The position numbers and the translations under genes were made by a program. Below are positions 19,402-26,050 of a DNA stretch of 38,069 bases, piece after piece. Position 1 is the first letter of the stretch, and every line of letters starts with the position of its first letter. Under the pieces are notes generated by a model. That model was not told where the DNA came from, did no database searches, and saw nothing but the letters and a program-made list of their open reading frames with translations. This DNA comes from Syntrophaceae bacterium (lineage in GTDB: Bacteria > Desulfobacterota > Desulfomonilia > Desulfomonilales > Desulfomonilaceae): assembly GCA_031292235.1 (NCBI GenBank), contig JARLHM010000044.1:1-38069 (forward strand). Direction: 5' to 3'.

Positions 19402-19782
19402 TTAGATGGTGAGTGACCGTATTTTTAAATCGTCATACGTGTAATAACGAACATTCCCATCATCTGTTATTCGAAAGACATGACCTGTTCTGTGTTTCTT
19501 TTCGCTGAAATCCAATTCTCGAAAAAGAAACTTTAGTAGTTTGGGGATTATTGATGCCTGTTTATCTGAAATCTTAAAGCAAACCACACAAAACGGGTTG
19601 TTAATGGCAACTTCTTGCCAAAAATCTTTTACATTAATCGTTATAAATAAAGGGTATTTTTTTGTTGCTTGAAGAAGCTGCGGGATGGCGTCATCTTTTA
19701 CAGTGGTGTTGGGTCTCAAATCATTTATAGGCCGCACGCTTAGAGAAATTGCTCCAAATTCTCCTTGCCTCAAGTATCGCAT
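19402..19782 (-). pseudogene. PIN-like/DUF5615-type toxin, apparently N-terminally truncated
   Basis: TVKDDAIPQLLQATKKYPLFITINVKDFW resembles the central 'DDEI..A....LITNDKDF' part; the usual N-terminal LDENL segment is absent because that DNA encodes the antitoxin in another frame. Confidence 0.4.
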
Positions 19783-19990
19783 TCTTTGACACACGCCCCC
19801 TATAGCCCGCAACAATTTCGTCAATGTCCTCTCCGGCGTCAATTCTGTCTCGTGTCCCAGCAATCAGAATACGAGTATATTTGAACGTAGGACGGCCTCC
19901 GCAGACGCCTTTAGCTTTTACTACATGTTCACCCAGCGGGATATATTCATAGGGTTCGTCATCGATAATTTCAGTTATCATTCTTGACAT
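19721..19990 (-). CDS. DUF433-family antitoxin-like protein
   Basis: VVKAKGVCGGRPTFKYTRILIAGTRDRIDAGEDIDEIVAGYRGRVSKNAILEARRIW; start at 19990 with upstream AGGA. Confidence 0.65.
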   Translation of the reverse strand: MSRMITEIIDDEPYEYIPLGEHVVKAKGVCGGRPTFKYTRILIAGTRDRIDAGEDIDEIVAGYRGRVSKNAILEARRIWSNFSKRAAYK

Positions 19991-20100
19991 AAAGCAGTCC
20001 TCATAAAGATATCTGGTAAATAAAATGCCGTTGACAATTTTATTTGACAATAAATTAAATTTTCCGGATTGAAAAATCAAGAATCGAAGCGCCCCGATAT

Positions 20101-21384
20101 TTATGGTTTTGTAGCCACGCTCGTGTTTTTCAATTCTTCCAATGCGGCGGTTATTAGACGTTTTACAGGATCATAGGATTCAGCGCTTAGCGCCTGTTCC
20201 AAAATTGGCGTAATCCTTTCGGGTTCTGATTTGCCAATGACTCGCAAAGCGTTAACTGCGGCTATCCTGGTTCTATAGTCCTTGTCGTTTAGGGCCTTTT
20301 GCAGGGCTTCTATAACTTCGGCTGGTGGAAATTTAATTGAGCCGAGCGTAGATATTGCGGAATTCCTCACTCGCATGTCTGAATCGGTTAACAACGGGAT
20401 GAGCTCCGGAGCCGCCTTACCTAGATCTGTCCCAAGTCCCCTGATGAGTCCTAAAGCCAGGAGACGGTTTTCAATATCCTTGTCTTTTAGTTCTTCTATA
20501 AGGGAGTCAAGAAACGCAGGGGCTTTTGTACGAAAGCGCATCAAGGCTATCAGCGCCTCCCTCCTGTCAAGCGGGTTATTCTCTTTTAGGGCCTTTAGAC
20601 AAATAGGAACGGCAAAATCTCCAGATTCATCTATTGCGCTTACAGCGTCAAGTATGTCTGACCGGGTGTCCTCATCGGACTTCTCATACATGGCTATGAT
20701 TTTGGGTAATGCCTCACCAGCGTGTTTCTTGAGTTTTTTAAGCGCCGGCAGTGCATGAACAGCGGCAACCGGTGTCTTTGAGTCGAGCGCTTCGACGAGA
20801 ACGGGTATCACCTTTTCAGGTTTTTGCTCCCCTATCATGGCTAGCGCTTTGCTTGCGCCCTTGGCCGTGGATTCATTCTTGTTCCCGAGGGCTTCAGCCA
20901 GAACGGGAATTTCTGTGTCATTCCAGGTTCCCAGAAGCGCCATAGCGATGGTAGCATTCATTTGAGTCTGTTTGTCTGGATCATCCAGATACTTCTTGAC
21001 CAATTCCTCGACAGAATGTTCTCTTTCACCAACACGACCCAGGGCAAGGACCGCCGCACGCCTGGGAGACACGTCAGGATCGTTTAGGACCGCTATCAGG
21101 GCCTTCTTTACATCATCGCTGTGGTTTGGGAAAAACCCCAAAGCCTCGGCAGCGGCGCTACGAACCATTGGATCAGGATCTTTCAAGGCTTCCAAGAGAG
21201 GCGGGACCGCCCTCGCTGGTTTGTTTCAGGAGCAACCAAGGTCAAAAGCCGCCTTTGCCCGGACAGCCGGATCGTCACTTTTGAGATTCTTTATGTGCTT
21301 GTCCGTTGAATCAGCAAAGACAGACTGTGGTTGCAAAAAGCAAAAAAGCAAAAAGACAGCGAAGACGACTGAAAAAATTCTCAT
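20101..21384 (-). CDS. secreted HEAT-repeat protein interrupted by a single in-frame TGA at 21228..21226 (pseudogene or candidate selenoprotein)
   Basis: ATG at 21384 overlaps the upstream TGA (ATGA). MRIFSVVFAVFLLFCFLQPQSVFADSTDKHIKNLKSDDPAVRAKAAFDLGCS[TGA]NKPARAVPPLLEALKDPDPMVRSAAAEALGF... HEAT repeats continue in the same frame. Confidence 0.75.
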
Positions 21385-22181
21385 TTCTCAGGTTTTCCTT
21401 TACTCAAGACTTCATGTTTCTTCTTTTCGAGAAAATCCTTATCGATTTTCAAAAAACCCTTTTTCCCGAACAGGGCGAATCGGAGCCATTGGGCGGCGAA
21501 ATACAACATCGTGACATCATCATCCCGTATTTTTTTTACAATATCATCATCAATCTGGAATTTCTGAAGAAAACTGGAATTGAAAACAAATTCTCTAAAG
21601 CGGTCCACATCATACAGAGCCATCAGGATCATGTCCTGCATCCGAGGGTCGGCGATTTTTTCTTCCCATAGCTCGTCCGCGTGCATGACATCTTTCAGGT
21701 TGTGATCTATATCGTCGTAATCTCGGAGGCCCTGGTCCCTGCGCCAGTCTTCAACCGTCAACTCTGTTGATTCCTTGAGACCGTGACAGGTGTCTTGCTT
21801 GACGATAAAGGAATACTCCACTCCCTGTTCGGTATCGAGTGGGTAAAGACGACACGAATATGGTCGGCTCTCGTATACTCCACATCCTGCATCGTTCACA
21901 AACGGGCATTTCTTGTCTTCATCCTTGTTCATTTTAAGGACGACCGCAGGCAAACCACTTTTTTGAGACAACACTCTGTGTGTATAAGTTTCAATAAAAT
22001 CAGTTGAGGACATCTTGAGCGCTTTTCGCAATCGAATGACATCCAACGAGTCCAAGAAAATTGTTACGTCCCTACAACACGAATTAAAACAGTCTATGCC
22101 AGAGTGGCACTTGAAGCAAAAGGTGTCGTCCCACGTCATTATTCTCTCTTGATTTTCGCCTGATTCGGCTCGAAATTTCAT
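21381..22181 (-). CDS. YkgJ-family CxxCxxCC-type metal-binding protein
   Basis: CFKCHSGIDCFNSCCRDVTIFLDSLDVIRLRKAL and CPFVNDAGCGVYESRPYSCRLYPLD. Confidence 0.85.
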   Translation of the reverse strand: MKFRAESGENQERIMTWDDTFCFKCHSGIDCFNSCCRDVTIFLDSLDVIRLRKALKMSSTDFIETYTHRVLSQKSGLPAVVLKMNKDEDKKCPFVNDAGCGVYESRPYSCRLYPLDTEQGVEYSFIVKQDTCHGLKESTELTVEDWRRDQGLRDYDDIDHNLKDVMHADELWEEKIADPRMQDMILMALYDVDRFREFVFNSSFLQKFQIDDDIVKKIRDDDVTMLYFAAQWLRFALFGKKGFLKIDKDFLEKKKHEVLSKGKPEK

Positions 22182-22206: not shown

Positions 22207-23169
22207 TTAGCTAGGTTTGTTCTGAACCCGCTCGATATTTTCCAATGCCTGTTTGTTTCCGGGGTCGAGATCTAGAGCTTTCCGCCAGCACTCCAGGGCT
22301 TTGTCCATATCACCCAGCATCTCATAGGCGACCCCTTTTTGATGATGCGCCCCGATGTAGTTCTCCCTGAATGCTATAGCTCTATCGAAACAATTTAACG
22401 CACGGGAGAAGTCACGCTTAACTATTAGACAAATCTGTCCCATGTTGTAGTAAGCGGTTACATAGTCCGGGTCCAACTGAACGGTTTTTTCAAAACATGA
22501 TAGGGCGGCGTCTTCCCTTTTCAAGAAGGTGTATGCCACGCCGAGGTTATAAAAGACCGCCGAATTTTCAGGGTCTAGAGCCGCGACTTTTTCGAGCCTT
22601 GCCGCCGCCTGTTGATAATCTTCATCTTCGAAATCGGAGAAAGCCCGCTGGAGTTGTACTTGGGCTAAAAATGATTGCGGGTTCTTTGCTCCTGCCTCAA
22701 TGGCGGACAATTCTTCCAGGATTTTCTTGACGGCATCCTTTTCTTGAGCATTTTGAAAAAGCTCCAAAGCTTGCTCAAATGATTCACGGGCCTTTTCAAT
22801 TCTGCCTGCGCACGCCCGGGAAACACCTAATCGATACTGAATGTGGGGTTTCTTTGACTCATCTGGGTCGACTAGCGCTTTTTCATAATATTCCGCCGCT
22901 CTAAGATAATCTTCAGCCCCGTCATAGCAACTGGCTATGGCCTGTAGTATTTCACAGGATCTGGGATTGTCATTGAGACAGTCTTTGAAGTCGCAGATTG
23001 CTTCGTCCCACATTTTTTCTGACATAAGCTTGTAAGCCTGGGCTATTTTTCCCTGTGTGGAATTAGAGAGAGGGGCTCTTTGGTCAACCGACTGATTTGG
23101 TAAACAACAATGCTTAAATTTTTTCCCGCTACCGCAAGGGCAGGGGTCGTTTCTGGAGACAGTCGCCAT
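22207..23169 (-). CDS. TPR-repeat protein with N-terminal SEC-C metal-binding motif
   Basis: MATVSRNDPCPCGSGKKFKHCC followed by multiple TPRs; internal ATG at 23169 preferred. Confidence 0.88.
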   Translation of the reverse strand: MATVSRNDPCPCGSGKKFKHCCLPNQSVDQRAPLSNSTQGKIAQAYKLMSEKMWDEAICDFKDCLNDNPRSCEILQAIASCYDGAEDYLRAAEYYEKALVDPDESKKPHIQYRLGVSRACAGRIEKARESFEQALELFQNAQEKDAVKKILEELSAIEAGAKNPQSFLAQVQLQRAFSDFEDEDYQQAAARLEKVAALDPENSAVFYNLGVAYTFLKREDAALSCFEKTVQLDPDYVTAYYNMGQICLIVKRDFSRALNCFDRAIAFRENYIGAHHQKGVAYEMLGDMDKALECWRKALDLDPGNKQALENIERVQNKPS

Positions 23170-23707
23170 CCTGGATGATCCTTTCGAGTTAGCGAATAAC
23201 AAAACATTTATAGTAATATATTAACCGGCATCCCTCAAGCAAAATAAACAATTGTTTTTTACGGACTTTTGGAAAACTATTGTCCAAAAATTCTCTTGAC
23301 AAAAGGAATAGGATTTGATTCAATTGACCAATTCATTATTGCTTAGGTCATCCAAGGCCTAGCTGGATATCCAATTTAGTATTTCAGCGCTAATTAGATC
23401 CACGTCGAGTTGAAATGGTCAAACTTTTTCTCGGAAGTTCCACACAGTACCGATTTTTCTCAGAGACTAAGCATAATCCGGTGGCCGTTGGCGCCGATGT
23501 TTATGTTCGGGGTTCGGCCGTTCTCATGAACGGAGGGTAAAGAGGGGTCTCGGGGACAAAGCGCCTTTAGCTTGGGAAATGATCTTCCAGGAATGGATGA
23601 CTACCTTGAGAAAGGAGGAGCCCGTCTATTCGTTTGAGTCGAAATTTTTGACATTAAACTTTAGTTGTAAGATCAGAGAAAGATTTATCACGCCAGGAGG
23701 ATAGTTC

Positions 23708-24151
23708 ATGCCAAGTTTTGTAATTATGGAAAAATGTGATGGATGCAAGGGGCAGGATAAGACTGCTTGTATGTACATCTGCCCGAATGATTTGATGGTT
23801 CTTAACAAAGAGACAATGAAAGCGTGGAACCGCGCGCCTGAAATGTGCTGGGAATGTTACAATTGCGTTAAAATTTGTCCCCAGCAGGCGATTGATGTGC
23901 GTGGTTACGCGGACTTCGTGCCCATGGGCGCTTCAGTTGTACCGCTAAGAGGTTCGGAAGACATTATGTGGACTGTTAAGTTCCGTAATGGTTCGCTCAA
24001 AAGGTTTAAGTTCCCGATCCGGAAGACCCAGGAAGGAACAGCCGTTCCTGATGGCGGTTTCGGTGAAGTGACAACGGACCTGGCGAGCCAGTGCCTGTAC
24101 AACGAGCCGGCTGCTCTGAAGCTCGCCGCGCTACCCACGGTTAAGAAGTAA
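23708..24151 (+). CDS. aprB: adenylylsulfate reductase beta subunit
   Basis: MPSFVIMEKCDGCKGQDKTACMYICPNDLMVL, two [4Fe-4S] motifs, C-terminal tail typical of AprB. Confidence 0.97.
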   Translation: MPSFVIMEKCDGCKGQDKTACMYICPNDLMVLNKETMKAWNRAPEMCWECYNCVKICPQQAIDVRGYADFVPMGASVVPLRGSEDIMWTVKFRNGSLKRFKFPIRKTQEGTAVPDGGFGEVTTDLASQCLYNEPAALKLAALPTVKK

Positions 24152-24172
24152 TTCCTTAGGAGGAAGCTAATA

Positions 24173-26050
24173 ATGGCCAATTTTGAAAATGTAGAAGTAA
24201 CCACTGACATTCTCCTTTGTGGTGGTGGTATGGCGGCCTGCGGAGCCGCTGTTGAAGCCGCATATTGGGCGGCGAAAAATAATTTGAAGGTAACATTGGT
24301 TGATAAAGCGGCTATGGATAGATCCGGCGCCGTGGCCATGGGCCTGTCTGCCATCAACCAGTATGTTGACATCAACAGCGGCAATAACACTGTTGAAGAC
24401 TATGTCCGTTACGTCCGTAACGATCTCATGGGCATCGCCCGTGAAGACCTCGTTTATGATATCGCTCGTCACGTTGATTCCTCTGTCCATCTGTTCGAAA
24501 AATGGGGCCTCCCCATCTGGTTGGACGCAGACGGAAAGTATGTTCATGAAGGCCGCTGGCAGCTTATGATCAACGGCGAATCCTATAAGGTGATCGTGGC
24601 CGAAGCCGCGAAGAACGCCCTAACCAAGTACGGCCATGAGTATTTCGAGCGCGTTTTCATCACCGATCCGTTGATGGACGGCGAAAGAATCGCGGGCGCG
24701 GTTGGTTTCAGCACCCGTGAGAACAAATTCTATGTATTCAAGGCCAAAGCAGTCCTAGCCGCAATGGGCGGCGCTGTTCACGTTTTCAAACCGAGAAGCA
24801 CTGGTGAAGGCCTTGGCCGGGCCTGGTATCCGCCTTGGAACTCCGGCTCCAGCCTTTATTTCACATTGATCGCAGGCGCTGAGCAGACCTGCCAGGAAGT
24901 GCGTTTCATCCCTGTCCGTTTCAAAGATGGTTACGGACCGGTTGGCGCGTGGTTCCTCCTGTTCAAGTCCAGGGCCACTAACGCGTTTGGTGGCGAGTAC
25001 ATGGTTGAACGTAAGGATGAACTTGCAAAATGGGGCGAATACGGAAAAGTGAAGCCGATCCCAGCTAACCTCCGTAACTACCTTGGCATGCTCGATGAGT
25101 TTGAAGGCAAGGGCCCAATCTACATGAGAACGGAAGAGGCTATTCAAAAGATAGCTAATGAACTTAAGGGCGACCCAAAAGCTTACAAAAAGAAAATGAA
25201 AGAACTCGAGAATGAAGCTTGGGAAGACTTCCTGGATATGACAATCTCCCAGGCTATTCTCTGGGCCGGAACCAATGTCCAGCCCGAAGAGAAAGCTTCT
25301 GAGATCGCAGCGGCCGAGCCGTACTTCATTGGTTCTCACTCAGGCGCTTCCGGCGCATGGGTCAGTGGTCCTAAAGACCTCGCTCCGAAAGAGTACTTCT
25401 GGGGCTATGAATATATGTCCACGGTTAAGGGTCTATTCTGTGCGGGCGACGCCACCGGCGCATCCAGCCATAAGTTCTCTTCCGGTTCACACGCCGAAGG
25501 ACGAGCGGCCGGCAAGTCGATGGTCCGTTTCGTAGTCGATAACAATACCCAGCCGAATGTGGATGCGGCTAAAGTTGAAGCTATGAAGAAACAGATCCTC
25601 AATCCCATGGATCTGTTTGTGGAATTCGGAGCCAAGTCAAGTGACCCGAACATCAACCCCGAGTTCATGAAACCTAAAATGTTCATGTTCCGCCTCCAGA
25701 AAATCATGGACGAATATGCCGCTGGCGTGACCTCAGGCTTCAAAACCAACAAGGCTAAACTAGAGAGAGCCCTTGAACTGTTGAATTGGCTGAAGGAAGA
25801 CTCCGCGAAACTGGCGGCAGAGGACCTACACGAACTTATGCGTTGCCATGAGAACATTCAGAGAATGTATCAGGCTGAAGTTCATGTTCGCTCGATCCTG
25901 TTCCGTGAAGAAACCCGCTGGCCGGGCTACTACTTCCGCAATGACTTCCCAACCATCGACGAAGCTAACTGGAAGGTCTTCGTCAACGCTACCTACAAAA
26001 ACGGCGCTTGGGAAATGAAGAAGGTACCCGTTATCTCTATCGTCAACTAA
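24173..26050 (+). CDS. aprA: adenylylsulfate reductase alpha subunit
   Basis: ILLCGGGMAACGAAVEAAYWA, DRSGAVAMGLSAINQY, ATGASSHKFSSGSHAEGRAAGK. Confidence 0.98.
   Translation: MANFENVEVTTDILLCGGGMAACGAAVEAAYWAAKNNLKVTLVDKAAMDRSGAVAMGLSAINQYVDINSGNNTVEDYVRYVRNDLMGIAREDLVYDIARHVDSSVHLFEKWGLPIWLDADGKYVHEGRWQLMINGESYKVIVAEAAKNALTKYGHEYFERVFITDPLMDGERIAGAVGFSTRENKFYVFKAKAVLAAMGGAVHVFKPRSTGEGLGRAWYPPWNSGSSLYFTLIAGAEQTCQEVRFIPVRFKDGYGPVGAWFLLFKSRATNAFGGEYMVERKDELAKWGEYGKVKPIPANLRNYLGMLDEFEGKGPIYMRTEEAIQKIANELKGDPKAYKKKMKELENEAWEDFLDMTISQAILWAGTNVQPEEKASEIAAAEPYFIGSHSGASGAWVSGPKDLAPKEYFWGYEYMSTVKGLFCAGDATGASSHKFSSGSHAEGRAAGKSMVRFVVDNNTQPNVDAAKVEAMKKQILNPMDLFVEFGAKSSDPNINPEFMKPKMFMFRLQKIMDEYAAGVTSGFKTNKAKLERALELLNWLKEDSAKLAAEDLHELMRCHENIQRMYQAEVHVRSILFREETRWPGYYFRNDFPTIDEANWKVFVNATYKNGAWEMKKVPVISIVN

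Follow-up and report, generated by a model that had tools for sequence, protein, structure and literature searches.

The bacterial SECIS element of the Escherichia coli fdhF type lies directly downstream of the UGA and has a bulged U17 and an apical G23/U24. On the protein side, the closest described relatives of the gene reported here are the HEAT_2/PBS-lyase HEAT proteins (PF13646, PF03130), including the CpcE/F-type lyases and the designed alphaRep proteins. An inventory of May 2026 lists 119 prokaryotic selenoprotein families (PMC13188914, Table 1), and those with a C-x-U motif include ferredoxin-thioredoxin reductase, rhodanese-like form 3, UshA-like, and Trx-like Sec.1. No HEAT, armadillo, or PBS-lyase family is among the 119 in that table. 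The authors of deep-Sep have themselves pointed out that their method may miss selenoproteins without Cys-containing homologues (PMC12013277).

The gene analyzed here lies in a stretch of 38,069 nucleotides from a Syntrophaceae bacterium (assembly GCA_031292235.1, contig JARLHM010000044.1), referred to below as the window. Like the listed C-x-U selenoproteins, whose function is mostly presumed to be redox, it has an in-frame UGA, a predicted bacterial SECIS, and a Cys two residues before the inferred Sec; unlike them, it is built not on an enzyme or thioredoxin-type domain but on a HEAT solenoid, and neither Pfam nor NCBIfam found an enzyme domain in it. It resembles the HEAT_2/PBS-lyase proteins in its sequence repeats and solenoid fold and differs from them in the family-specific Sec of its first repeat. 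No NCBIfam model scored over its cut-off, and the phycobilin-lyase models fell far below theirs (68 bits versus 300 for NblB and 59 versus 330 for CpcE), so that membership in a CpcE/NblB-type family is not met. The protein matches no domain and Sec motif combination in the inventory, and the word HEAT is absent from PMC13188914, PMC12013277, and PMC9312934. The family, here called HEAT-U, is apparently unreported as a selenoprotein family; GenBank records annotated by others are not excluded. It would add to the inventory a fold that is currently outside it and a Sec that is nearly without a Cys counterpart.

The HEAT-repeat gene and its in-frame TGA

Read on the minus strand, the gene (Table 1) comprises 427 codons and a TAA, and its sole internal stop is the TGA of residue 53, with 52 codons ahead of it and 374 sense codons behind it. 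At its 5' end, the start codon shares the sequence ATGA with the stop codon (TGA) of the upstream CxxCxxCC gene. Re-reading the frame confirmed what the first-pass annotation had described, namely, an ATG at 21384 overlapping the TGA of the YkgJ gene, one in-frame TGA at 21228..21226, and 30 plus 344 codons behind it. No other in-frame TGA of the window has nearly so long an open frame behind it. The product matches the HEAT_2 profile (E = 6.4e-55), which meets the criterion of a HEAT-repeat profile match, and its hydrophobic N terminus (approximately residues 1 to 24) resembles a signal peptide, as judged by eye without a predictor.

Table 1. Features of the HEAT-U locus in the window
Feature	Position	Strand	Evidence
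HEAT-repeat gene, inferred selenoprotein of 427 residues with Sec53	20101..21384	-	HEAT_2 match, TGA column, purifying selection ahead of and behind the TGA, AlphaFold solenoid
In-frame UGA, inferred Sec, residue 53, two residues past Cys51 (G-C-S-U)	21226..21228	-	TGA column in 19/20 homologues, Cys in the other
Predicted bacterial SECIS hairpin	21192..21219	-	Published bSECIS constraints, peak of synonymous-site conservation, two compensatory pairs
PF03692 CxxCxxCC protein (YkgJ-like, putative zinc/iron-chelating), upstream partner, ATGA overlap with HEAT gene	21381..22181	-	Family match, kept beside the HEAT gene in syntenic copies
TPR protein carrying a SEC-C zinc-binding motif; heads the three-gene operon	22207..23202	-	Family match, conserved order
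aprB-aprA-like (adenylylsulfate reductase), divergently oriented relative to the operon; listed for context, outside the HEAT gene	23708..26050	+	Synteny; names by eye from sequence features, not a family library
qmoABC-like genes	after aprBA, to 30945		Names by eye from sequence features, not a family library

Homologues were collected by tblastn of 60 related genomes and by a profile search. The window's own bacterial family is represented by 18 genomes; 16 of these yielded full-length copies, one of which loses its C terminus to a contig end, and the remaining two have only C-terminal pieces at contig ends. The TGA occupies the same alignment column in 19 of 20 full-length homologues. These 19 genes, 27 to 97% in identity, come from 16 separately assembled genomes that span 10 genera, and none of them contains an internal TAA or TAG. 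In most homologues the UGA sits in the motif [GS]-C-x-U-x-[KR]-P-x-x-A-V. The one exception in the column has Cys, and Gly or Trp occurs there in none of the 20, so that the criterion for a bacterial selenoprotein, a UGA that is conserved or Cys-replaced in homologues, is met. This is also the outcome that, in the first-pass annotation, was to favor Sec over a mutated Gly or Trp codon.

The Cys-bearing homologue (L043) is one continuous frame that reads VGTCCRPLRAV, with a Cys-Cys pair at the place of the UGA. It is the sister of a UGA-bearing gene (L020; support, 98/97) and is nested inside the TGA-bearing family, which argues that a Sec-to-Cys replacement probably took place within HEAT-U. 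Between close pairs, dN/dS is 0.07 to 0.18 behind the TGA versus 0.11 to 0.31 ahead of it; being as low behind as ahead, it implies full purifying selection on the part behind the TGA. The gene, although "broken" in appearance, is almost certainly whole.

When the profile was run over the other genomes of the class (24) and over almost 300 sampled from the phylum, no member turned up outside the window's bacterial family; searches of plasmids, phages, and viral contigs found none either. Scanning 85,462 genomes by pattern gave two family members and two generic HEAT proteins. A further HEAT-like frame with an in-frame TGA (L049, G011:C71:16602-18302; LEDPEUSGRAMFGLG) was seen in passing; its conservation was not examined, and its TGA may be an ordinary stop.

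A conserved hairpin downstream of the UGA

In the window, the RNA behind the UGA is predicted to fold as GAG-GGCG-GUCC-CGCC-U-CUC (-14.4 kcal/mol), with a core stem at 21214-21196, the apical loop GUCC at 21207-21204, 18 nt past the UGA, and a bulged U at 21199. A stem-loop stands at the same place in nearly every homologue, typically as GAGGGC-GGUUCC-GCC-U-CUC. Like the fdhF-type element, the hairpin is directly downstream of the UGA and has a G-U in its apical loop at about +22/+23; unlike that element, most HEAT-U hairpins carry the bulged U in the 3' strand of the stem, and the stem register shifts from member to member.

Folding of the single sequence is of little significance against dinucleotide shuffles (z of -0.1 to -1.0 for longer windows, not significant, and a modest -2.1 for the best 40-nt window), and comparative tests were therefore used. 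Since the hairpin lies within the codons of a conserved HEAT motif (RAVPPL), it was tested against synonymous alternatives. The mean folding z of the +9 to +40 region relative to synonymous resamples is -1.8, and most genes individually reach p < 0.05. In 14 divergent genes, fourfold-site identity is 66% at codons U+4 to U+11 versus 29% over the remainder of the gene; these codons mark the maximum of synonymous conservation among 397 nine-codon windows (P = 7e-5 for random codon sets).

Published constraints for bacterial SECIS elements are a loop of 3 to 9 nt, a stem of 4 to 16 bp, a G in the first two loop positions, a spacing of 16 to 37 nt, and an MFE of <= -7.5 (PMC13188914). These are satisfied by 18 of 19 genes, including that of the window, versus 24% of synonymous resamples, and the loop of the passing genes starts 17 to 18 nt from the UGA. 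The SECIS-like hairpin noted at first pass thus exists and recurs among homologues; one UGA gene (L022) has no hairpin passing the constraints. The genes are related by descent, and for that reason the per-gene figures are not independent. Pair counting in a fixed-register alignment was weak because the register of the stem slips by 1 to 2 nt between members; RNAalifold gave two compensatory pairs only, and Rfam contains no matching SECIS family. The significance of the hairpin accordingly rests on comparison, that is, on the shared TGA column, the synonymous-site conservation, and the pass rate under the bSECIS constraints, and on these comparative grounds it is an RNA-level element. The Cys paralogue L043 (G013:C82) still keeps GGGCAGUUCCGCCUCUC, a possible SECIS remnant that no longer folds as this hairpin.

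Selenium machinery

The window's genome encodes SelB, a SelA fragment that still scores over the cut-off although a contig edge truncates it, and a SelD over the cut-off. The selD gene has a UGA where Sec is canonically placed (SGUAAKIGPG), and behind this UGA is a hairpin spaced as in the HEAT-U gene. The presence of selA, selB, and selD in the genome, taken as a criterion, is therefore met, with SelA as a contig-edge fragment only. The first-pass annotation had proposed a check for all four sel genes, and this was fulfilled for three: no tRNA-Sec (selC) scored over the cut-off in the window genome's own assembly, an 83% complete draft, and a tRNA-Sec did so in 16 of 17 relatives. Two tRNA-Sec-like genes exceed the Rfam cut-off in each of G010 (C1:3200382-3200475 and 3562734-3562821) and G017 (C470 and C38), the second copy having the lower score.

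Taken by comparison, with selenium incorporation itself inferred, these results make it very likely that the gene encodes a selenoprotein in which UGA53 is read as Sec. They uphold the earlier suggestion of a candidate new selenoprotein through the TGA column, the conservation of the hairpin, and the selenium genes. Counting against it are the lack of a tRNA-Sec over the cut-off in the genome's own assembly, the truncated SelA, the exception of L022, and the weak pair counting. Because one complete genome of the set apparently comes from a cultured species, the claim is testable.

Predicted fold and possible function

The AlphaFold prediction (six sequences; mean pLDDT, 87.6) is a HEAT solenoid, meeting the criterion of a helical-hairpin solenoid; in the model, U53 comes directly after helix 39-52 and ahead of helix 56-66. 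The Foldseek hits in the PDB were all generic HEAT/ARM solenoids; TM-scores were low, and none of the hits hinted at a function. A Cys two residues before Sec (C-x-U) is present in 16 of 19 members, and this neighboring Cys is absent in two divergent ones (L042 and L044).

Four genomes have a paralogue elsewhere, in each case immediately downstream of thiol-redox or sulfur genes and on their strand. The Cys version (L043) follows Thioredoxin_3 and DsbD_TM, two others follow DGC, MauE, and rhodanese, and one follows rhodanese. In one of these clusters (L110), only the rhodanese was scanned, and its MauE- and DGC-like neighbors were named by similarity to L109. Together, the four clusters (L107, L108, L109, and L110) hold rhodanese, MauE/DoxX, DGC, Thioredoxin_3, DsbD_TM, and ArsP_1 permease genes beside the HEAT-selenoprotein paralogues and are a candidate periplasmic thiol/sulfur module.

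We propose the following sequence of events. As the comparison shows, the ribosome very likely reads UGA codon 53 as Sec, directed by the in-frame SECIS hairpin with its loop start 17 to 18 nt past the UGA, and selection maintains the complete product of 427 residues. The product is inferred to be exported and its signal peptide removed, which would leave a mature HEAT solenoid whose first repeat has Sec53 at the C terminus of its second helix. Either Cys51 or a thiol of a partner may then pair with Sec53 as a selenenylsulfide. Proteins of the thioredoxin, DsbD/MauE, or rhodanese type may exchange electrons or sulfur with this site, the HEAT array possibly serving as the docking surface.

A periplasmic thiol/selenol site for C-x-Sec redox or sulfur handling is thus our inference, held with only modest confidence, as no catalytic activity has been shown. 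It is supported by C-x-U in most members and by the position of the paralogues; against it, HEAT repeats usually only bind, L042 and L044 lack the neighboring Cys, and the other two genes of the main operon are not obvious redox partners for an exported protein. The main alternative, which remains possible but which we find rather less convincing, is that the protein is a selenoprotein whose Sec53 serves as a soft-metal ligand or as a structural or sensor residue and not as a redox center. Consistent with such a role, HEAT scaffolds bind, operon neighbors carry metal-binding motifs (CxxCxxCC and SEC-C), two members have no adjacent Cys, and two paralogues have ArsP-type permeases close by (ArsP_1 by scan for L107, similar by eye in L110). 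Yet the immediate neighbors of the paralogues are mostly thiol-redox genes, and C-x-U resembles the motifs of known redox selenoproteins.

Under the redox reading, HEAT-U as a whole might serve sulfate reducers as an exported, selenium-dependent module for redox chemistry or sulfur handling, built on a nonenzymatic repeat scaffold and with Sec almost obligatory (19:1 over Cys). Across one bacterial family it is tied to the adenylylsulfate reductase locus, it has paralogues in periplasmic thiol-redox clusters, and it would have escaped notice because searches depend on Cys homologues. We regard this broader picture as plausible and somewhat favored, no more. The family itself also suggests that more selenoproteins are hidden as split ORFs in genes for repeat proteins.

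Other readings of the TGA

It could be argued that the UGA is a true stop and that a short exported peptide is followed by a re-initiated HEAT protein, either as two products or with the first as a regulatory leader. Both HEAT-repeat parts could be stable, and TTG codons occur downstream. We nevertheless reject this reading, which is very improbable, on the absence of a conserved start codon in the first 100 codons past the TGA (best column, 9/20); in addition, the HEAT repeat continues straight over the UGA, the downstream product would be without a signal peptide, the Cys homologue is uninterrupted, and the SECIS-like conservation would be left unexplained. Even less credible is a general reassignment or readthrough that yields Trp or a near-cognate residue: the frame is indeed open save for the TGA, but the homologous residue is Cys and not Trp, neighboring and homologous genes terminate in TGA, the selenium genes are present, and the UGA of SelD is at a known Sec site. 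A recent nonsense mutation or a sequencing or assembly error, only one codon change away from sense in a draft assembly and rated at least equally likely in the first-pass annotation, is refuted by a TGA shared at the same codon by 16 separately assembled genomes and by the selection that persists behind it.

A conserved locus beside aprBA-qmoABC

The gene inferred here to encode a selenoprotein has a fixed place in the genome. All eight genomes inspected closely keep the gene order TPR/SEC-C, CxxCxxCC, HEAT-U, divergent from aprB-aprA, and the qmo genes are seen in syntenic copies where the fetched stretch extends to them. On its other side, the operon is flanked by two topoisomerase-type genes in five of the eight; in the remaining three, the fetched stretch did not show them. 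This fixed place ties selenium use to the sulfate reduction locus in one family of presumed sulfate reducers. Downstream of the HEAT gene, the window contains a DUF433-like ORF, which we take to belong to an antitoxin-type family, and a second, overlapping ORF (19402-20080, minus strand). This region is present in a close relative (G002) and absent from the flanks of more distant relatives and is thus perhaps a recent insertion.
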